The position numbers and the translations under genes were made by a program. Under the pieces are notes generated by a model that saw only the letters and a program-made list of their open reading frames with translations, ran no database searches and was not told where the DNA came from. From the NCBI GenBank assembly GCA_030692565.1, contig JAUYAO010000031.1, positions 62,001 to 126,000 of the forward strand: a stretch of 64,000 nucleotides of DNA, given 5' to 3'. Source of the stretch: Nitrospira sp. (GTDB lineage: Bacteria; Nitrospirota; Nitrospiria; Nitrospirales; Nitrospiraceae). This document shows, piece after piece, positions 10,546 through 24,800 of this stretch (position 1 is the stretch's first letter; each line of letters opens with the position of its first letter).

Positions 10546-10737
10546 GAAACCAAGACCTTTCGAGCAACACACAGTTTTCGTAGCACGGGGCATTATGCGG
10601 GAGGGCCTCCACCGGCGCAACCGAAGAGCGTCGGAATGCCCGACCGGGCGATCCGATCCATGTTGACTGTGGCGCAGCGTCTTTGAGTGTGCCACAATTC
10701 CTTCCAAATCGACTGGATCTCGCTGGAGGACTCAGCA

Positions 10738-12486
10738 ATGACGAACTCGAAGAAAGAGGGTGTGAGCTTGCTCAACCGGAGACCCTACTTCTGGACGATC
10801 GCCGTATTCTGTTGGCTCATCTTCCCCTGCTCCGGGTGGCACAGCCTGCACGCCGAAACGGCCGCCCCCACATTGAGCCAGGCTCCGCTCCCTCAGCCTA
10901 TTGGCGCGCCGGTGGTGTTGGGAGAGGATACGCTTTTTTTGATCTACGACAAGCTGGGCCCCTTCACCCCGCAGGAACGGGCTCAGGCCATCACAGACCG
11001 GTTGACTCGCCTCGCCAAAGATCCCTTCACCAGCGTGCACTCCGTCACAGCCACGGATCAAGAACTCACGAGCGAGCTCGTGCATGGCGAAATGGTGGTG
11101 ATGACCATCACCGACCGCGATGCCCAGCCCACCGGCAAGAGCCGGCAGGATCTCGCAAGAGACTACGCACAGAAGATCCAAACGGCGCTCTCACAATCCC
11201 ACGAACAGTTCTCCATACGCGCCCTCATCATCGACGCCGCCTGGGCGCTGCTGGACACCGCCATTCTCATCGTCCTTCTGGTCCTATTCCACAAAACATT
11301 TCCAAAAATCTACGCCAAAATCGAGGCCTGGCGCGGGACCATCATCCGCCCGATCAGGATCCAGCGCGTTGAATTGCTGTCGGCTGATCAGATTGCGACG
11401 GCACTCACAGCGCTAGCCAAGACTATCCGCATTGTGGCGGTCTTGGTCCTGTTTTACGTGTATCTCACGACCGTTCTGGGCATCTTCCCGTGGACCCGAG
11501 GCATCTCAGCCGCGCTCTTCGGGGCTGTTGTCTCCACCTTGCAGGCCATTGGCCAGGCCTTTGCGACCTATATCCCCAATGTCGTGTCGATCGCGGTCAT
11601 CATCGTCGTCACCCGGTACATCCTCAAAATGATTTCGTTGTTATTTGTCGGGATCGAGCGAGGAGCCATCACACTCACGGGGTTTCACCGGGAGTGGGCC
11701 GAACCGACCTATAAGATCGTCCGGTTCCTGGTGATCGTGTTCGCCGCCATCGCCTGTTTTCCCTACATTCCCGGATCACAGTCCGAAGGGTTTCGCGGCA
11801 TCTCCGTCTTCTTGGGTCTCCTCATCTCGTTGGGATCGGCCGCTGCCATCGGCAACGTCGTTGCCGGGGTGGTCCTCACCTACATGCGCCCGTTCCGCGT
11901 CGGCGATCGCGTCAAGATTGCCGATACCATGGGAGATGTCATGGAGAAAACACTCCTCGTCACGCGCGTCCGGACGATCAAAAACGTGGACGTTACAATT
12001 CCCAATGCCATGGTCCTCGGAAGCCATCTCATCAATTTTAGTTCCGTGGCCAAAGAGCAGGGTCTCATTCTCCATACCAGGGTGACCATCGGCTACGACG
12101 CCCCCTGGCGAACAGTCCATGCCCTGCTGATCTCAGCCGCGCGGGCGACGACGCATATCCTCGCAAGCCCGGAACCCTTCGTGCTGCAAACCAGCCTGGA
12201 CGATTTCTATGTGACCTATGAAATTAACGCTTATACCGATCAAGCCAATCTGATGGCGACGATCTACGCGGAACTGCACCGGCACATTCAAGATCAGTTT
12301 AATGAAGCGGGTGTCGAAATCATGTCGCCACACTATGCTCAGATCCGTGACGGCAACCAGACCACGATTCCAGACCAGTACCTGCCCAAAACCTACCAGG
12401 CTCCGTCGTTCCGCTTGGGTCCGCTGGGCAACTTGTTTCGCGCCGGTCCAGATCCAGAAAGCCCCAAGGGAGGGCCGAAACCATGA
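10738..12486 (+). CDS. Large MscS-family mechanosensitive channel
   Basis: A 582-residue protein: a signal/anchor segment near residues 17-37, an extracytoplasmic domain to about 160, several membrane helices, then an MscS core. The pore-helix region reads FLGLLISLGSAAAIGNVVAGVVLTYM and the beta domain has RVGDRVKI and VTIPNAMVL. MscS channels release solutes on hypo-osmotic shock. The ATG at 10738 has GGAGGA eight bases upstream. It overlaps the next MscS gene by 4 bp (ATGA), so the two are translationally coupled. The C-terminus is proline-rich and longer than in minimal MscS. Confidence 0.88.
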   Translation: MTNSKKEGVSLLNRRPYFWTIAVFCWLIFPCSGWHSLHAETAAPTLSQAPLPQPIGAPVVLGEDTLFLIYDKLGPFTPQERAQAITDRLTRLAKDPFTSVHSVTATDQELTSELVHGEMVVMTITDRDAQPTGKSRQDLARDYAQKIQTALSQSHEQFSIRALIIDAAWALLDTAILIVLLVLFHKTFPKIYAKIEAWRGTIIRPIRIQRVELLSADQIATALTALAKTIRIVAVLVLFYVYLTTVLGIFPWTRGISAALFGAVVSTLQAIGQAFATYIPNVVSIAVIIVVTRYILKMISLLFVGIERGAITLTGFHREWAEPTYKIVRFLVIVFAAIACFPYIPGSQSEGFRGISVFLGLLISLGSAAAIGNVVAGVVLTYMRPFRVGDRVKIADTMGDVMEKTLLVTRVRTIKNVDVTIPNAMVLGSHLINFSSVAKEQGLILHTRVTIGYDAPWRTVHALLISAARATTHILASPEPFVLQTSLDDFYVTYEINAYTDQANLMATIYAELHRHIQDQFNEAGVEIMSPHYAQIRDGNQTTIPDQYLPKTYQAPSFRLGPLGNLFRAGPDPESPKGGPKP

Positions 12487-13415
12487 CAACCTCTCTCCAG
12501 CGGTTCATTGAAAGCTGGTTGTTCGATCCGACGGTCGGCAAGCTGGTCTCTACCACGGTCGCGATCCTCCTGGTCATGGCACTGGTGCGGATATCCCGGA
12601 GAGTGCTGAATCGCTACGTGCAGGAACCAGGCAATCTGTACCGTGCCAAGAAGATGGTGACGTTTCTTGGATACTTCACGGGGCTGATTGCCATCTCTCT
12701 GATTTTCAGTGATAGCCTTGGGAGAATGGCCGTGGCCTTTGGCGTCGCCGGTGCCGGAATCGCCTTCGCCTTGCAGGAAGTCATCGCCAGCCTCGCCGGA
12801 TGGGTGGCCATCTCATTCGGCAACTTCTACAACACAGGCGACCGGGTTCAGCTCGGCGGCATTAAAGGGGACGTGATCGACATCGGCATGTTACGGACGA
12901 CGATGATGGAGATCGGCCAGTGGGTGAATGCCGACCTCTACAACGGGCGTATTGTGAAAATTGCCAACAGTTTTGTCTTCAAAGAGCCGGTGTTCAACTA
13001 TTCCGGCGACTTTCCCTTCTTGTGGGATGAAATCACGGTCCCGGTGAAATACGGCAGCGACTACCGCTTCTCCCGTGAGATCTTTCAACGGATCCTGGTC
13101 GAGATCACCGGAGAATATTCCACACAAGCCAAGGCGAGCTGGACGGAGCTGATTCAACAGTACCGAGTGGATTCAGCCGAGATCGATCCCCGCGTCTTCC
13201 TCGTCGCCAACGATAATTGGATGGAGTTCACGCTTCGCTATGTCGTGGACTACAAGAAGCGGCGGATCACCAAGGATCGGCTGTTCACCCGCATTCTGGA
13301 AGAAGTGGACCAGACCAACGGTCGCGTGGCGCTCGCCTCCGCCACCTTCCATCTCGTCGAAACCCCTGAGATCAAAGTTCAGCTGGTCGCCCCCCCACAA
13401 GGTCGCCAGGCTTGA
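12483..13415 (+). CDS. MscS-family mechanosensitive channel, short form
   Basis: A 310-residue MscS-type protein with two or three N-terminal helices and a core region AVAFGVAGAGIAFALQEVIASLAGWV (pore helix), followed by NTGDRVQLGGIKGDV, a typical MscS beta domain entry. It is the second gene of a tandem pair and begins inside the stop of the first (ATGA overlap). A beta-barrel gene begins at its stop codon, so the three form one operon. Having two different MscS proteins translated together suggests either mixed function or different gating thresholds, which is inference. Confidence 0.87.
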   Translation: MTTSLQRFIESWLFDPTVGKLVSTTVAILLVMALVRISRRVLNRYVQEPGNLYRAKKMVTFLGYFTGLIAISLIFSDSLGRMAVAFGVAGAGIAFALQEVIASLAGWVAISFGNFYNTGDRVQLGGIKGDVIDIGMLRTTMMEIGQWVNADLYNGRIVKIANSFVFKEPVFNYSGDFPFLWDEITVPVKYGSDYRFSREIFQRILVEITGEYSTQAKASWTELIQQYRVDSAEIDPRVFLVANDNWMEFTLRYVVDYKKRRITKDRLFTRILEEVDQTNGRVALASATFHLVETPEIKVQLVAPPQGRQA

Positions 13416-14605: not shown

Positions 14606-14626
14606 CCACTGATGCCCCGGTCATTT
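14600..14626. terminator. Inverted repeat between convergent genes
   Basis: AAATGACC (14600-14607) and GGTCATTT (14619-14626) form a perfect 8-bp stem around an 11-base loop. The porin stop (14603-14605) and the antiporter stop (14621-14623) lie symmetrically inside the two arms. It probably acts as a two-way terminator, though there is no long T run. Confidence 0.55.
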
Positions 14627-15874
14627 CCGTGTCAACCTATTCTCTTGGCTCCCTCCCATAGAAAGCACTCGATTGATCGTCAGCCCTTGAACCAAAATCG
14701 AAAAGACCACCACCGCATAGGTAATCGTGATCAGCGCGTCGCGCTCCTGGCCGACCGGCAGGGACAAGGCTAACGCCACGGAAATCCCGCCGCGGAGCCC
14801 GCCCCATGTTAGAATCGTAACGGTCCGCTCGCTAAACTCCCGGGCGAAGCTGAAGGCTTTCACTTGCACGAAGACGCTCAACCAGCGCGCCGCGAGCACC
14901 AGCGGAATGGCGACCAGGCCAGCCAAAAGATATGGCCGCTGAAAGCTCAGCACCAGCACTTCCAATCCGATCAGCACGAACAGCACGGCGTTCAACAATT
15001 CATCGAGCAATTCCCAAAAATTGTCGAGGTGCTCTCGTGTGGTGTCGGACATCGCCCATTGCCGGCCATGGTTTCCAATCAGCAAACCCGCCACGACCAC
15101 GGCGATCGGTCCGGACGTATGGAGAAGGTCCGCGAGGGCGAAACTCCCCATCACCAACGCCAGAGTAATCAAGATCTCGACCTGATAATTATCCACTGAC
15201 CGGAGCATACGATAGGCGACGTAGCCGAGGGCCAATCCCAGCGCCGCACCCCCGAGGGCCTCTTCCGCAAAGAGCGCAAAGATGTCGGTCACGCTCACCG
15301 AGGGTTTCGGTAAGAGGTTGAGGACCACCAGGAAAATCACGACGCCGACTCCGTCGTTGAAGAGCGATTCGCCGACGATCTTCATTTCGAGGGCCTTCGG
15401 AAGACGCGCCTGCCGCAACACACCCATGACGGCAATCGGATCGGTCGGCGAAATCAGCGCGCCGAACAGCAGACAATAGAGAAAGGGCAGTGGCAGCCCG
15501 ACAAAATCAAAGAGCCAATACCCCAGCAAGCCGGTGATGAGACTCGAGAGGATCGTCCCGACGACCGCCAGCGTGCCAATTACCCACTTGAGGTCCAGCA
15601 ATTCGTCCAGTTTTACGTGGAGCGCCCCGGCGAACAACAGAAACCCCAGCATACCGTGCATGAGCGCCTCGTTGAAATCGATGGCGCCGATGAACCGTTG
15701 GGCTTCCGCTTCGACTCCAAACCCCAGCTTGCCCAGTACGAGCAACACGAGCGAAAAGACCAGCGCCACCGCCATCAGCCCGATGGTAATCGGCAGCTTC
15801 AACAGCCGATGGTTGACGTAACTGAACAACGCGGCCAGGCAGATCAGAATAGTCAGCGTATGAATTAACGGCAC
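14621..15874 (-). CDS. CPA1-family Na+/H+ antiporter (NhaP-type)
   Basis: A 417-residue polytopic protein with CPA1 motifs: LFGALISPTDPIAVMGVL, GESLFNDGVGVVIF (the membrane ND pair) and WGGLRGGISVALALSLP near the end. It exchanges Na+ (or K+) for H+ at the inner membrane. The start is GTG at 15874 with GGAGA seven bases upstream. It converges on the porin gene. Together with NhaA and the CPA-type gene at 9.3 kb it is one of three cation/proton antiporters in this window. Confidence 0.9.
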   Translation of the reverse strand: MPLIHTLTILICLAALFSYVNHRLLKLPITIGLMAVALVFSLVLLVLGKLGFGVEAEAQRFIGAIDFNEALMHGMLGFLLFAGALHVKLDELLDLKWVIGTLAVVGTILSSLITGLLGYWLFDFVGLPLPFLYCLLFGALISPTDPIAVMGVLRQARLPKALEMKIVGESLFNDGVGVVIFLVVLNLLPKPSVSVTDIFALFAEEALGGAALGLALGYVAYRMLRSVDNYQVEILITLALVMGSFALADLLHTSGPIAVVVAGLLIGNHGRQWAMSDTTREHLDNFWELLDELLNAVLFVLIGLEVLVLSFQRPYLLAGLVAIPLVLAARWLSVFVQVKAFSFAREFSERTVTILTWGGLRGGISVALALSLPVGQERDALITITYAVVVFSILVQGLTINRVLSMGGSQENRLTRK

Positions 15875-16053: not shown

Positions 16054-16980
16054 CTAGGATTTCGCTATACTTGCTCCGGCGACGACCTCGACTTTGAAGG
16101 GGGCGCTGGCTTCCCCCATATACCAGGTTCGATGCGGGAACGGAATCTCGATCCCCTGCCCGTCAAAGGCCCTCTTCAGTCGCCGGCGGTATTCGCGTCC
16201 CACATTCCATTGTTCCAACGGCCTGGTCTTGATCCGAATACGAATGACGACGGCTGAATCGGAAAAATCGTCTACGCCGATGATTTCGATGGGGGCGACG
16301 AACTTATCGCGAAAGGCAGGGTCTTCCCGTAGCTCTTCGCCGACCTGGCGCATGACGTCGGCGACCCGATCCGTATCCTCTTTGTAAGCCACGCCCATGT
16401 TCAGTACGAACGCCGACCATTCCTTCGTCATGTTCGAGAGCGTCGTGATCGTGCCGTTCGGGAAGACATGCACCACTCCTGAAAAGTCGCGCAACGTGAT
16501 CGTGCGGAACGTGATCGATTCGACCAGGCCGCCGGTGCCGTTGATGACGGCCACATCACCCAGCCTGATTTGATCCTCCAGAATGATGAAGAAGCCGCTG
16601 ATCAAATCCCGGACGAGATTCTGCGCCCCAAAGCCCACGGCTAGGCCGAGAATCCCGGCCCCCGCCAGGATCGGTCGGATATCCAGTCCGATCTGGTCCA
16701 GCACTTCGACGATAATCACGGCCCAGATGAGGCTGATCACAATGGTGCGGAGAATCCCCGTCAGCGTCGCAGCCCGTTTCCGGCTGGTGTCGGAGTCCAC
16801 GTCCCCCGGCATACCGGTTCTGGCTACCAGAGATTCCAGGTGTCGAATGCCCAGCCGGAGAAACCGCATCGCGACAAGCCCCAGGACGACGATCAATGCG
16901 ATCTTGGCGCCGGCCTTGCCGATGGTCGCTCCCATCGAAATCAGCCAGGGCGTGAGTTCCTGCAGTGTCCCTGTATCCAT
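16054..16980 (-). CDS. MscS-family mechanosensitive channel
   Basis: A 308-residue protein with three N-terminal helices. The pore helix reads ILAGAGILGLAVGFGAQNLV and the beta domain has DQIRLGDVAVINGTGGLVE and VHVFPNGTITTLSN, close to the E. coli-type MscS/YkuT plan. The ATG at 16980 has GAAGGAG upstream. It is the third MscS protein in the window and lies 49 bp downstream of an outer-membrane protein gene on the same strand. About 180 bases between it and the CPA1 gene hold no gene I can see. Confidence 0.9.
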   Translation of the reverse strand: MDTGTLQELTPWLISMGATIGKAGAKIALIVVLGLVAMRFLRLGIRHLESLVARTGMPGDVDSDTSRKRAATLTGILRTIVISLIWAVIIVEVLDQIGLDIRPILAGAGILGLAVGFGAQNLVRDLISGFFIILEDQIRLGDVAVINGTGGLVESITFRTITLRDFSGVVHVFPNGTITTLSNMTKEWSAFVLNMGVAYKEDTDRVADVMRQVGEELREDPAFRDKFVAPIEIIGVDDFSDSAVVIRIRIKTRPLEQWNVGREYRRRLKRAFDGQGIEIPFPHRTWYMGEASAPFKVEVVAGASIAKS

Positions 16981-20350: not shown

Positions 20351-20566
20351 TCAGCCCGGGCTCCAATATTCAATGGCGTAATAAATACTCCAGAGAAGCA
20401 ATCCCACCACAACCAGGATCAGCCAAAACGGAATACGCCCGTCATGCTCTGTAATCCCCGCGTGCCGGTACAGATAGGGCTGTCCAGGATCCGAACTATC
20501 CTGCCGCTCCGGCCCCGATGGACCGGAACTCGACTCGTCCGCTTGTATCACGTCTCGATCTCTCAT
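20351..20566 (-). CDS. Small membrane protein resembling the FixP/CcoP N-terminal domain
   Basis: A 71-residue protein with a polar N-terminal half and one membrane helix (IPFWLILVVVGLLLWSIYYAI) ending YWSPG. The segment GITEHDGRIPFW resembles the GI-x-E-x-D-NPxPxW lead-in of the FixP/CcoP N-terminal domain. It overlaps the fused oxidase gene upstream by 4 bp. This fits a stand-alone version of the CcoP anchor, complementing an oxidase chain that carries CcoP-like haem domains without that anchor. It could also be a CcoQ-like assembly factor. Confidence 0.65.
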   Translation of the reverse strand: MRDRDVIQADESSSGPSGPERQDSSDPGQPYLYRHAGITEHDGRIPFWLILVVVGLLLWSIYYAIEYWSPG

Positions 20567-23457
20567 GGTTGCCGCCCTTCATTGGCGGTCTCAGCCGCCG
20601 GCCGGGCCGTCTGCCGTTCGTCAGGCTGTCGCTGAACGACGTCCTTGTCCAGCTCCCCCCGTCTGGCAGCGGGCGAAAGCGCAGCCCAGATGCGCGATCG
20701 GGCCTGCTCCCGATCCGTCTCCTTCAAGCCGGCCGCAACCAACTCCGCCTCGTGCGCCTTCACGCGGAGCGATTGGACGTAGTGGACGATATCCCATATC
20801 TCCTCCGGACTGAGCTGCTCCCAGAACACCGGCATGGGCGTTCCCCCGATTCCCGTTATCACGGTTTTATACAGATGCTCGCCATCGTGCCCGAGCTTCA
20901 CGCCTCCGGACAGACCGGCCGGCAGCGTGAAATTCGCCGGCTTCAACGGTTGCCCCCACACATCTTTTAAGATCGGCGCCATCGGCCCATCTCCTTTTCC
21001 CTCGGCGCCATGACAGAGCATGCAGTTCGCCCCGAAGAGGGCCTTCCCCTTCTCGAGCGACACGATCGAGATCGGAGGCTCCGCCGCGATCGTCATCGAC
21101 GGCGGGACGACCTCGTCTCTCCATCGGCCAGAAAATGTCTTGATGTACTGCACCACGGCCCGCCGTTCGTGGTCTGAAACTTCCTGCCAGGCCGGCATGG
21201 CCGTCCCCCAGAGTCCGTGGGTAATGGTGCTGTAGAGATCGATGTCGGTCGGCAGTGAATCCTTGCCGGAGGTCGATCGAAACTTGAAGATCCCGGTCGT
21301 GAAATCTCTCGGACGCGGAGTCATGAATCGTGCGGACGGTCCCAGGCCATCACCCTTGCCCCCATGGCACCCGAGACAGCGGCGTTCGTACACCGACTTT
21401 CCGAGCATCAGCAGCTCGTCCTGCGATTGAGGACTGGCATTCAACACCTGGCCGGACGAAACCTGTGTTGCAACGAACCCTTCCCGCCAATCGCCGATGC
21501 CGGTCCCGAGCTTTTGCACATACAGCACCAAGGCCTTGCCGTCGTCGTTCAATTCCGGCGCATCGCCGGCTTTGGCCGGTTCGAACAGCCAGGGGAACAC
21601 CGGCATGATAGAGTCCGGCACGACTTCCCGCGGGTTCCAAAAATGGGCGGCATGCCAATCGTCGCCATATTTCCGGCCCACTCTGGTCAGGTCCGGACCG
21701 ATGCGTCGCGTGCTGAACAGGTGTGGCCGGTCATAGGCATATTCGCCGGCCTGCGACACCGGCCCCCAGCGGAACGACTCTCCGGTGACGGGACGCACGT
21801 ATTGCGAATGACAGTACCAACAGCCCTCGCGGATATACACCTGCCGGCCCTTCAGCTCTTCGGGCGTATAGTCCGCCACCTGGATCGCCGACTTTGTGAC
21901 GGGGTCCTCGACGGTGGTCGTGCGCGTTTCAGTCATCAACCAGGGGGTGACGCCCTGCACGCCGACGGCAAGAAAGAAAAACCCGAACCCCGCAACCAGG
22001 AAGACCGTGGAGGGGCTTTCGATCCAGCTTCCCTTGGCGACAACCTCTATCGGCGTATCGGCCGGGCGGGCGGCCTCGAACACCTCCGGCTCCAACGCCT
22101 CCCCCTCTCGCGCAGTCTTGTAGAAATTGATGACCATCAGGAGCAGCGCCACGTCCATTGCCACGCCTCCCAGTGTGCGCGCGACCCACCAGGGCTTCAT
22201 CTCTTTCACCGTATCCACGAAATTGGCCCCGTACTCGAGCATGGAACCCTGGACGAACCCTTGAGCAGACAGCCCCACGACCATCACCGTGAAGCCGGCG
22301 ACGGTCAACCAGAAGTGCCAACTCGCCAGCTTGTCGCTCCAGAGCTTCCGGCCTGTGACGCGCGGCCAGACATAATAGGCGGAGCCTACCGCCCACACGA
22401 CGAAGGTGCCGAACACGGTGAGATGGGAATGGGCGATCACGAAGTCATTGAAGTGGGTCAACTCCTGAACCCGACGCAGCGCCTCGACCGAGCCCTGGAA
22501 ACAGCCGATCAGATAATAGACCGCTCCCATCATCAGAAACTTGGCTGCATAGTTGTCGCCTCCGCCCCCGCCGGCGACAGTGCCCCATCGTCCCAGCATC
22601 GTACCGAAGAAATTCACCACCACCGTCCAAACCGGAATAATGAGCAGCATGCTGGTCACGATCGAGATCGTCTGGGTCCAGTGCGGAATCGGACTGTACA
22701 GATAGTGATGCGTGCCGACAAACGGATAAAAGAAAGCCAGCCCCCAGAATCCCAGCAACGACAGCTTGTGACTATATAACGAGCTCTTGGCGCTGAGCGG
22801 TAAGAAGTAATAGACCAGCGCCAGGCCGGCGGGAGTGATCCAGAGCCCGACGATGTAGTGGATGTACAACCCGTGCATGGCCGCACTGTTGACCCCCGCA
22901 ATATCTTCGGCATAGGTCAACAGCACATTGCCGAGAATCAGGTTCATGATCGTCCAGATCAACGCGGCGGTCGTGTACCACATCGCGACATAGAACCGCC
23001 GCTCGGTCCGCCGAAAGACGGTGCCAAGCACCTGCACGGTGATCAAACCCAGGATAACGAACCGGAGCAGATTGAAGGGCCATTCGAACTCCCCGGCTTC
23101 GAGTCCCATATTGAACCCGAACAGAAACGAGGCGTTGCCGAGAACCAGAAACCCGTTCCATAGCCACAGGAGCCACCAGCCCCACTCCTCTTTGTACATC
23201 CGCACCCCGCAGAGACGCGGCACGATGTAGTAGAGGAGCCCGAGGAAGACGGTTGAGAACGATCCGAAGATGACGCCATTGACATGGATCGGACGCAACC
23301 GGCCGAATGTCAACCAGGAGATGCCATCGAGAAATCCCGGATTGTGAAACTTGATCGACACCACCACCCCGACGATCGGAAAGAACGTTAACCAGATCAA
23401 CGCCCACCACAACCAGGCCCTGATTAGCGGTCGATTAATCACTTCTTGATCGTTCAT
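20563..23457 (-). CDS. Single-chain cbb3-type cytochrome c oxidase: CcoN-CcoO-diheme CcoP-like fusion
   Basis: One 964-residue polypeptide holds what are normally three subunits. Residues 1-460 are a CcoN-like catalytic core with the expected ligands: H58, H200, the Y244 and H250-H251 segment (FFYPFVGTHH) and H343/H345 (VIAHSHLTVFG). Residues 480-660 form a CcoO-like part with a helix (about 483-502), haem site CWYCH (546-550) and a methionine in MPVFPW (M619). Residues 685-900 add two cytochrome c domains with CLGCH (694-698) and CMLCH (812-816), with M754 and M875 as likely ligands. The ATG at 23457 has GGAGGGAAG upstream and overlaps the nhaA stop. It would reduce O2 at high affinity and pump protons. 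Confidence 0.9.
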   Translation of the reverse strand: MNDQEVINRPLIRAWLWWALIWLTFFPIVGVVVSIKFHNPGFLDGISWLTFGRLRPIHVNGVIFGSFSTVFLGLLYYIVPRLCGVRMYKEEWGWWLLWLWNGFLVLGNASFLFGFNMGLEAGEFEWPFNLLRFVILGLITVQVLGTVFRRTERRFYVAMWYTTAALIWTIMNLILGNVLLTYAEDIAGVNSAAMHGLYIHYIVGLWITPAGLALVYYFLPLSAKSSLYSHKLSLLGFWGLAFFYPFVGTHHYLYSPIPHWTQTISIVTSMLLIIPVWTVVVNFFGTMLGRWGTVAGGGGGDNYAAKFLMMGAVYYLIGCFQGSVEALRRVQELTHFNDFVIAHSHLTVFGTFVVWAVGSAYYVWPRVTGRKLWSDKLASWHFWLTVAGFTVMVVGLSAQGFVQGSMLEYGANFVDTVKEMKPWWVARTLGGVAMDVALLLMVINFYKTAREGEALEPEVFEAARPADTPIEVVAKGSWIESPSTVFLVAGFGFFFLAVGVQGVTPWLMTETRTTTVEDPVTKSAIQVADYTPEELKGRQVYIREGCWYCHSQYVRPVTGESFRWGPVSQAGEYAYDRPHLFSTRRIGPDLTRVGRKYGDDWHAAHFWNPREVVPDSIMPVFPWLFEPAKAGDAPELNDDGKALVLYVQKLGTGIGDWREGFVATQVSSGQVLNASPQSQDELLMLGKSVYERRCLGCHGGKGDGLGPSARFMTPRPRDFTTGIFKFRSTSGKDSLPTDIDLYSTITHGLWGTAMPAWQEVSDHERRAVVQYIKTFSGRWRDEVVPPSMTIAAEPPISIVSLEKGKALFGANCMLCHGAEGKGDGPMAPILKDVWGQPLKPANFTLPAGLSGGVKLGHDGEHLYKTVITGIGGTPMPVFWEQLSPEEIWDIVHYVQSLRVKAHEAELVAAGLKETDREQARSRIWAALSPAARRGELDKDVVQRQPDERQTARPAAETANEGRQP

Positions 23458-24800
23458 CGTCTTCCCTCCATGTGAATCCGTCTCAACAACCACCACCCGA
23501 TGGTCCCCGCCACCGCCGAGGCGGTCAGGATCCCCACTTTGGCCGGGGCGTCGAGCGGCGTTTTCCCGAACGCCAGCCCTTCGATGAACAGCGACATCGT
23601 GAAGCCGATACCGGCCAGAAATCCGATCCCGATGATGTGGCGCCAGGTCAGATCCGGCGGCATGGTCGCCAATCCGACACGAATCGCCAGCCACGACGCC
23701 ACGATCACCCCGACCGGCTTGCCGATGACCAGGCCGGCCAGGATGCCGAGCGCGACGGGATGACCCAATGTCACGACCGGATCGCCTTCGAGCGTGACGC
23801 CGGCGTTGGCCAATGCGAAGATAGGCAGAACCACAGCCGTCACCCACGGGTGCAGGGTCTGCTCCAGACGTTGGAGAGGAGTGCCCACTTCACGGACCGC
23901 CTGTTGCAAACGGGAGGCCACTTTCTGTCTGGTCTTGTTGGCAAGCGGAGGGCCGCCCGGCTCCATCGCCTTCTGAAACCTATCGAGCAGCGCACGGCTC
24001 CGCGTGATGAACTCCTCGCCGGACAACCGTGTTCGCGCCGGAATCGTGAACGCCGCGAGCACGCCGGCGATCGTCGGGTGGACACCGGAGAGGAAGAACG
24101 CCAGCCACAAGCCGCCGATCCCCAGCATCCCGTAGACGAGCGGATGGCGAATACCGACGACGTTTGCGCCGATCAGGGCAACCAGGAATCCGCCCCCCAC
24201 CTCCAAACTCACCCAGGAGATCGTCGAGGTGTAGAAGAAGGCGATGATCAGGACCGCGCCTAAGTCATCGCCGATGGCCAGCGCGACGAGGAACACCTTC
24301 AGTGCCAGCGGCACCCCTTTCCCGAGCAACGAGAGAATCCCGAGTGAGAAAGCGATGTCCGTGGCCATGGGAATGCCCCAGCCCTTGGCCCCTTCCGTCC
24401 CCCCGTTGAACGCCGTATACAGCAGCGCGGGAAGGACCGCTCCCCCCACCGCGGCGGCGAGAGGCAACGCGGCTTGTCGCAGGGAGGAGAGTTCACCGAC
24501 CAGCACCTCTCGTTTGATCTCCAAACCGACGACGAAAAAGAACATCGCCATCAACCCATCGTTGATCCAGAGGACCAGCGGTTCCGTGAGTACGAAGTCG
24601 CCCGCCCCGAACGTCACCGGCAGTCGCCGGAACGCGGCATAGGCATCCGCCCACGGCGAGTTGGCCCAGACCAGGGCGATGAGCGTCGCGGCCATCAGCA
24701 GAATGCCCGCCGCCGACTCCGTATGGATGAATGCCCGGAACGGTTCCACCATCGGTTGGATCAACGCGTCACCCGCCCGGTTGTGATTTGTTTGCGACAT
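23454..24800 (-). CDS. nhaA: Na+/H+ antiporter NhaA
   Basis: A 448-residue protein with the NhaA plan of twelve helices. Key segments are ATDIAFSLG (146-154) and AIGDDLGAVLII, where D178 and D179 correspond to the ion-binding aspartates of E. coli NhaA. The C-terminal helices include IGIGFLAGIGFTMSLF. It is longer than E. coli NhaA (388) because of a charged insertion around residues 255-320. It expels Na+ in exchange for protons. Its stop overlaps the start of the fused oxidase by 3-4 bp, so both are probably translated together. Confidence 0.93.
   Translation of the reverse strand: MSQTNHNRAGDALIQPMVEPFRAFIHTESAAGILLMAATLIALVWANSPWADAYAAFRRLPVTFGAGDFVLTEPLVLWINDGLMAMFFFVVGLEIKREVLVGELSSLRQAALPLAAAVGGAVLPALLYTAFNGGTEGAKGWGIPMATDIAFSLGILSLLGKGVPLALKVFLVALAIGDDLGAVLIIAFFYTSTISWVSLEVGGGFLVALIGANVVGIRHPLVYGMLGIGGLWLAFFLSGVHPTIAGVLAAFTIPARTRLSGEEFITRSRALLDRFQKAMEPGGPPLANKTRQKVASRLQQAVREVGTPLQRLEQTLHPWVTAVVLPIFALANAGVTLEGDPVVTLGHPVALGILAGLVIGKPVGVIVASWLAIRVGLATMPPDLTWRHIIGIGFLAGIGFTMSLFIEGLAFGKTPLDAPAKVGILTASAVAGTIGWWLLRRIHMEGRR

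Follow-up and report, generated by a model that had tools for sequence, protein, structure and literature searches.

A two-chain cbb3-type oxidase proposed for Nitrospira: a fused CcoN-CcoO-dihaem cytochrome c protein and a candidate detached CcoP helix

The stretch of DNA analysed here (the window) comprises 64,000 nucleotides of a Nitrospira sp. genome (assembly GCA_030692565.1, contig JAUYAO010000031.1, positions 62,001 to 126,000 of the forward strand) and carries on its minus strand, at 20563-23457, a gene in which ccoN, ccoO and a dihaem cytochrome c module are fused into one open frame that runs from ATG to TGA and encodes 964 residues. A small gene on the same strand (20351-20566), whose ATG overlaps the TGA of the fused gene, encodes a FixP_N-like protein of 71 residues with a single helix. 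Together they most probably specify a C-family (cbb3-type) cytochrome c:O2 oxidoreductase of the fused type familiar from nitrite oxidizers. It would consist of two chains, the 964-residue CcoN-CcoO-dihaem c protein and the 71-residue protein, the latter representing the detached N-terminal helix of CcoP. A sequence-only reading of this DNA had presented 20563-23457 as an oxidase gene of 964 residues; coordinates and length hold, and the minus strand, which it had left unstated, has to be added (the plus strand of the interval shows several stops in the frame translated). The fusion itself has already been published and the window gene adds a member to it; new here are the detached helix gene, an intermediate in which only CcoO and the dihaem domain are joined, the affinity of the dihaem module and the scarcity of CcoS, CcoH and CcoG.

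In the Pfam search, the 964-residue chain matches COX1 over residues 13-432 (E 7.9e-74) and FixO over residues 478-627 (E 2.3e-46; 158.5 bits for a cut-off of 29.6), followed by two cytochrome c stretches in its C-terminal part. The CcoN-like catalytic domain (residues 1-460; 22078-23457, minus strand like all features of this gene) is delimited by the COX1 match and by the alignment to 3mk7_A, the CcoN of Pseudomonas stutzeri, in which phmmer pairs H58 with H60, H200 with H207, Y244 with Y251, H250/H251 with H257/H258 and H343/H345 with H345/H347. In the P. stutzeri protein we take H60, H345 and H347 to be haem ligands and Y251 to be the cross-link tyrosine; the CcoN-like histidines and the cross-link-type Y244 named in the sequence-only reading were all found, aligned with the ligands of 3mk7_A, and the six histidines and Y244 are kept in 36 of 36 CcoN rows, fused and outgroup alike. 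The CcoO-like domain (residues 478-650; 21508-22026) constitutes a membrane-anchored mono-haem CcoO part, recognised by FixO and by hydropathy, with a membrane helix at residues 481-505 and a CcoO-type haem c site, CWYCH, at residues 546-550 (21808-21822). The dihaem c domain (residues 676-900; 20758-21432), placed by its match to 6h5l_B, bears the sites CLGCH (residues 694-698; 21364-21378) and CMLCH (residues 812-816; 21010-21024), and the presence of all three motifs in one open frame, as first read, is borne out by the translation. In an alignment of eight fused proteins (A1, without the 99% identical G056 and the frame-broken G090), C546/C549/H550, C694/C697/H698 and C812/C815/H816 are invariant; M618, M754 and M875, also invariant, are likely axial haem ligands.

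Next to CuB, the catalytic domain displays the signature HGLYIHY (residues 195-201; 22855-22875), which corresponds to His202, Gly203, Tyr205 and Tyr208 in the P. stutzeri numbering, as used in the available part of PMC3578206. This signature is identical in all 20 fused rows of the CcoN tree set; in the form HGL[YF][IL]HY it is present in 25 of 25 rows when relatives with a separate ccoN gene (split forms) and their rhizobial counterparts are included, and in none of 11 outgroup rows. The position occupied by Trp203 in P. stutzeri is Gly196 in the window protein and glycine in all 25 rows of the clade; in the outgroup it is tryptophan in 10 of 11 rows and glycine in L099. The replacement of Glu323 by glutamine in CcoN was also considered as a special trait and rejected, glutamine being found in 35 of the 36 rows, outgroups included.

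In sequence, the dihaem part is closer to NxrC-like proteins and to dihaem proteins of the 6h5l type than to CcoP. In a single-sequence search, residues 681-897 match 6h5l_B with an E value of 2.2e-43, while the best CcoP chain (8smr_G) reaches only 1e-5; 6h5l_B is listed as a 'conserved hypothetical cytochrome protein' and presumably comes from Kuenenia. The CcoP profile TIGR00782 finds the second half of the dihaem part (1.6e-14), below its cut-off. The dihaem part also has 39% identity with the N-terminal region of a 596-residue protein encoded in the same genome (L104, 1404-3194, contig C1), which combines a dihaem c domain, an ethylbenzene-dehydrogenase-like (EB_dh) domain and a hydrophobic C-terminal stretch and would be NxrC-like because of its EB_dh domain. 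A link of the dihaem module to nitrite-derived electrons may plausibly exist; rhizobia share the module. The frame beside the gene of the 596-residue protein codes for a membrane protein bearing a single haem c site.

In CcoP, an N-terminal helix and the haem c domains belong to one chain; the arrangement found here is a helixless dihaem domain at the C-terminus of the long chain and a helix encoded by a separate gene. Past the CcoO helix at 481-505, the hydropathy profile contains no strongly hydrophobic window (maximum 1.18 after residue 520), and the dihaem part is therefore devoid of a CcoP helix of its own. Because this helix is absent from the long chain and a CcoP-type helix gene stands separately, the 964-residue protein would not be a complete enzyme of the CcoNOP kind. 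The original view of CcoN, CcoO and CcoP on one chain stands for CcoN, CcoO and a dihaem cytochrome c, and has to be amended for CcoP, whose helix lies apart and whose haem module here is nearer to 6h5l_B.

The kinship of the small protein with CcoP helices emerges from several profile comparisons. FixP_N (PF14715) is the top Pfam family for the window's 71-residue protein (E 5e-4), the only family matched by all nine members of A2, a set of small proteins from nine fused Nitrospiraceae genomes (best E 1e-6), and the top family for six of seven further small proteins (L025, L030, L062, L066, L059 and Rhizobium gallicum; E 4.8e-4 to 0.023); in the same search, three more queries from other loci matched it too. 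PF14715 was also searched genome-wide, like the assembly factors discussed below, in 25 genomes (16 of the 19 with an intact fused gene, three with the split form and six without the oxidase). At E<=1e-3, it was matched in seven of the 16 fused genomes, each time at the small gene and in three cases over the cut-off (G012, G320, G002), and in G160 and G354 at their second cbb3 locus; there was no match in the six Nitrospira without the oxidase. Against the PDB, the best hit of the A2 profile, a weak one, is the CcoP of 3mk7 at its helix (E 0.043), with PsbJ next (0.13). When 19 small proteins were aligned by hhalign to eight CcoP-type helices, the probability was 95.8% and the score 45.5, compared with at most 27.1 for 100 block shuffles (best probability 66.6%), at most 14.9 for 100 column shuffles, 19.1 for the reversed profile and at most 16.2 for six other one-helix proteins of these loci. 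Judged from profiles, the 71-residue protein is thus homologous to CcoP helices. Its E40 aligns with E49 of CcoP in 3mk7_C, a residue that lines the proton entry.

The small gene is linked to the oxidase gene and is under purifying selection. Every one of the 19 genomes with an intact fused gene (nine Nitrospiraceae, five other Nitrospirota and five Nitrospinota) has an orthologue behind it, which is the immediate next gene in 18 of them; in G287, a FixS frame intervenes. Over 147 Nitrospiraceae genomes, the A2 profile gives E<1e-15 in exactly the ten with the oxidase, G090 included, and the sole other match is marginal (G079, E 5e-4, inside a frame of 528 residues); as the profile was built from nine of the ten genomes matched, the informative parts of this co-occurrence are G090, which is independent, and the 136 genomes without any match. 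Along the last 43 codons of the small gene, dN amounts to 0.02-0.24 and dS to 0.10-1.96, with dN<dS in seven of seven pairs. In the window, a LapA-like gene follows it. The rhizobial counterpart (L077, 8148-8372) occurs in 39 plasmid records, and the 15 listed label it a hypothetical protein or leave it without annotation.

Among the samples searched, the intact fused gene was found in 19 genomes, 14 of Nitrospirota and five of Nitrospinota. The 147 Nitrospiraceae genomes, the window's own included, contain a full-length frame in nine cases and a tenth, broken over three frames, in G090; the 395 genomes sampled across the phylum contain the fusion in 12 cases plus G090 (the two samples overlap and jointly give the 14 intact Nitrospirota genomes), and the 77 Nitrospinota genomes in five. 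Named carriers include Nitrospira sp. CR1.2, Nitrospira defluvii isolate NOB1 and Nitrospina sp. MSP. In G056, the stop comes about 21 residues earlier, beyond all domains. The broken gene of G090 (contig C9; L032/L075) is either a decaying copy or the product of assembly indels, and about 1 kb separates its last piece from the small helix gene downstream.

The split form provides a glimpse of the path by which the fusion may have arisen. In G354, G160 and G274 and on two rhizobial plasmids (Sinorhizobium meliloti pSymA, L077, and R. gallicum, L078), the relative of CcoN is a separate protein, 50-54% identical, whose gene has a four-base overlap with one in which CcoO and the dihaem domain are already joined. 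These sisters share the CuB signature of the window protein, with phenylalanine for Tyr205 in G354, and a separate FixP_N-like gene occurs in four of the five split loci (L059, about 2.7 kb on, L060, L077 and L078), the S. meliloti mini-gene (L077) being recognised by motif and not by Pfam. The CcoN tree was midpoint-rooted and built without L028, L031 and L032 (truncated or broken), its outgroup being 11 of many more distant CcoN hits, selected because their loci were already available, with L050 and L067 representing one locus. On this tree, where the sequence-only reading had wanted the fusion mapped, all 20 fused rows group together with a support of 93/85, just short of the strict mark of 95/80; the Nitrospinota rows lie inside this group, and its neighbours are the split and rhizobial forms (88/89). 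Since the unfused sisters have CcoO and the dihaem domain fused and CcoN separate, these two probably joined first and CcoN last. CcoN would have joined once, with transfer between phyla, as far as moderate supports and a midpoint root allow.

A similar dissociation of helix and haem is seen at other cbb3 loci of the Nitrospirota type, L050 and L067 being counted once in this comparison. Where CcoO has one haem, FixP_N is joined to a haem domain in three of four loci (G189, G160, G362), and at L033 (Eremiobacterota) no FixP_N was recognised. Where CcoO has two haems (seven loci), a free, haem-less FixP_N-like gene lies right behind in four (L068, L054, L055, L057), and a FixP_N match right behind ccoO at L118 makes a fifth. 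Two-haem loci with a free helix constitute, by analogy, a parallel to the detached helix of the fused oxidase.

Several observations weigh against the proposed two-chain enzyme with a CcoP-derived helix. The window's own small protein scores 20.2 bits, under the FixP_N cut-off of 24.9, and was not recovered by the genome-wide PF14715 search at E<=1e-3; for its S. meliloti counterpart, Pfam gave no match at E<=0.5. E40 is glutamate in 15 of the 19 members of alignment A4, with valine in L062, serine in L059 and alanine in the two rhizobial proteins, and the idea of a strictly invariant proton-entry residue is weakened by these exceptions. Because A2 derives from nine of the ten matched genomes, co-occurrence in those nine is partly given by construction. 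A FixP_N-like gene was not found in the split locus L061 (G274), and, among the two-haem loci, FixP_N is still attached to a haem domain at L076, while none was seen at L051. The NCBIfam equivalog models score the long chain below their cut-offs (CcoN 252 for 583, CcoO 143 for 201 and CcoP, TIGR00782, 53.9 for 180 bits). The AlphaFold2 model of the single chain, computed with seven fused proteins aligned, has a mean pLDDT of 42.9 and hence lends the proposal no structural support, its predicted helices including one at 482-507.

Four other explanations were considered, the likeliest of which concerns the nature of the small protein. The latter might be an unrelated single-helix stabiliser, analogous to CcoQ, CcoM or CcoH, whose IPxWL helix start resembles that of CcoP by chance: such accessory subunits are common in cbb3 oxidases (according to the available part of PMC8267372), the small protein of the window has a match to PsbJ as well (E 0.0022), and its FixP_N match is short besides being below the cut-off. 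However, FixP_N is the sole family common to nine of nine A2 proteins, the hhalign score of the true alignment exceeds that of every control, and the Nitrospirota helix is attached to a haem domain with one-haem CcoO (three of four) and mostly free with two-haem CcoO (five of seven), all of which makes a chance resemblance rather unlikely. A different view, in which the fused chain is a complete stand-alone enzyme and the small gene a translational by-product or the bearer of a separate function, draws on the presence of all redox centres on the 964-residue chain; it is improbable in the face of purifying selection on the small gene, its place behind the fused gene in all 19 genomes and its absence where the oxidase is absent.

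The two further alternatives concern the long chain itself. Replacement of Trp203 by glycine next to CuB throughout the clade, and the fact that nitrite oxidizers handle nitrogen oxides, could point to a nitric oxide reductase or another haem-copper member that does not act on O2. This has little probability, as all 36 rows retain the three CuB histidines together with the cross-link tyrosine, and as the cbb3 oxidase of Nitrospira marina, called highly similar to that of Nitrospina gracilis, rises 3.6-fold at low O2 (available part of PMC8115632). That the single frame is an artefact of assembly or a frameshift is next to inconceivable. The gene of G090, spread over three frames, does imply that indels occur in the gene or its assemblies, but the artefact is rejected because the frame is intact in 19 genomes, and the junctions for which continuity had been questioned (about residues 460-480 and 660-685) are uninterrupted in independent assemblies, including the single-contig genomes G012, G064 and G380, all of which carry the fused gene.

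In the enzyme thus proposed, a periplasmic carrier would give electrons to the dihaem domain at the C-terminus, whose haems sit at C694 and C812; from there they would pass to the CcoO-type haem (C546) and then to the low-spin haem b (H58/H345) and the haem b3-CuB site, at which O2 would be reduced (H343; H200, H250, H251; Y244). The partner helix probably packs against CcoN at the position of the CcoP helix, so that the two chains would form one complex, and may supply a proton-entry glutamate, E40.

Operation without CcoS, CcoH and CcoG is suggested by the search for assembly factors. In the window's own genome, none of the three was found at E<=1e-3. FixS occurs in one of the 16 fused genomes, directly behind the fused gene of G287, and in three of three split Nitrospirota genomes. 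FixH exceeds its cut-off in two of the 16, as partial matches inside frames of 573 and 564 residues, and stays below it in a third. CcoG yields only weak pieces of fewer than 60 positions in the 16 fused genomes, and its cut-off is reached in none of the 25, the full-length matches in G160 and G354 being still under it. In searches of this kind, a diverged form of a 44-residue family could possibly be missed. That fused genomes in general lack CcoS and full-length matches to CcoG and CcoH fits, and does not prove, the earlier suggestion that fusion may alter assembly needs. Two other markers were discarded: PF12156, tried for CcoI, matched none of 16 fused and three of three split genomes and is a poor marker because it also matched none of 14 control genomes, and SCO1-SenC is uninformative, as it matches all 25 genomes with or without the oxidase.

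These elements can be drawn together in a scheme that we hold to be somewhat favoured on balance, in which CcoP has been split into its components. The haem function would have passed to a dihaem module of a different subfamily, NxrC-like or of the 6h5l type, fused behind CcoO and later joined by CcoN, and the membrane helix of CcoP would have been left as an obligatory stand-alone micro-subunit, the fused form assembling without dedicated CcoS, CcoH and CcoG. As a like rearrangement with another haem module is seen in other Nitrospirota cbb3 oxidases, the helix, perhaps as proton entry, would under this scheme be the indispensable part of CcoP. A detached helix alters what has to be co-expressed with the fused oxidase or sought in its structure, and this natural separation of the electron-transfer part of CcoP from its membrane part makes the role of the helix testable. 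The unfused sisters indicate a likely order of fusion, while the near-absence of CcoS, CcoH and CcoG raises the question as to how the copper site is assembled in nitrite oxidizers.

Directly upstream of the fused gene lies nhaA, for a Na+/H+ antiporter (23454-24800, minus strand; TIGR00773, 396.8 bits), the two genes overlapping by four bases (ATGA) where the fused gene starts; nhaA is possibly an operon partner and not part of the enzyme. NhaA is likewise upstream and overlapping in G056 and G002. In G069, G092 and two Nitrospinota loci it lies downstream of the small gene at a distance of up to about 1.7 kb, in L025 on the opposite strand. The stretches examined of G012, G064, L023, L026 and L062-L066 did not show it. 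Judged by translation alone, three frames at 10687-13415 and 16054-16980 of the window resemble mechanosensitive channels of the MscS type and one at 14621-15874 another Na+/H+ antiporter. Elsewhere in the genome, a second PF00115 match (G000:C36, 38.2 bits) falls in a frame of 430 residues in which no haem c motif was seen.

The closest known system is the cbb3 oxidase of N. gracilis, described in 2013 as three subunits in one gene of 954 residues, with His202, Gly203, Tyr205 and Tyr208 around CuB and one plus two haem c sites, His202, Gly203 and Tyr208 being otherwise reported only for some Sinorhizobium oxidases (PMC3578206, as far as available). The window protein, with 964 residues, shares with it the single-gene fusion, the CuB neighbours and the haem c sites. 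The available description contains no separate helix gene, CcoO-dihaem intermediate or oxidase assembly factors, and its main text has zero occurrences of 'CcoQ' and 'FixP'; likewise, no mention of a detached helix was found in the parts of the literature on these oxidases that were searched, supplements not covered. The available part of a Nitrospinota survey of 2024 lists fused carriers and unfused cases (PMC10839748). Fused cbb3 genes were reported in 2020 for 'Ca. Nitrospira alkalitolerans' (PMC7784846); its oxidase and that of N. marina (PMC8115632) have the module order of the window gene and are likened to N. gracilis, their descriptions being, in the parts available, without residue-level detail or a small subunit. 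Two annotated families represent a similar kind of fusion, namely the bifunctional CcoNO (NF011053/PRK14485), for which the window chain scores 434 for a cut-off of 1080, and CcoO-cytochrome c (NF011054/PRK14486), with 195 for 447. By comparison, CcoNOP of P. stutzeri (3mk7/5djq) has in common with the window's oxidase all CcoN ligands, Tyr251, E122/E125 (which we take to be the Ca site of CcoN), the CcoO fold and a CcoP-type helix; it differs in being encoded by three genes, in having Trp203 and in carrying the CcoP helix and its two haems on one chain.

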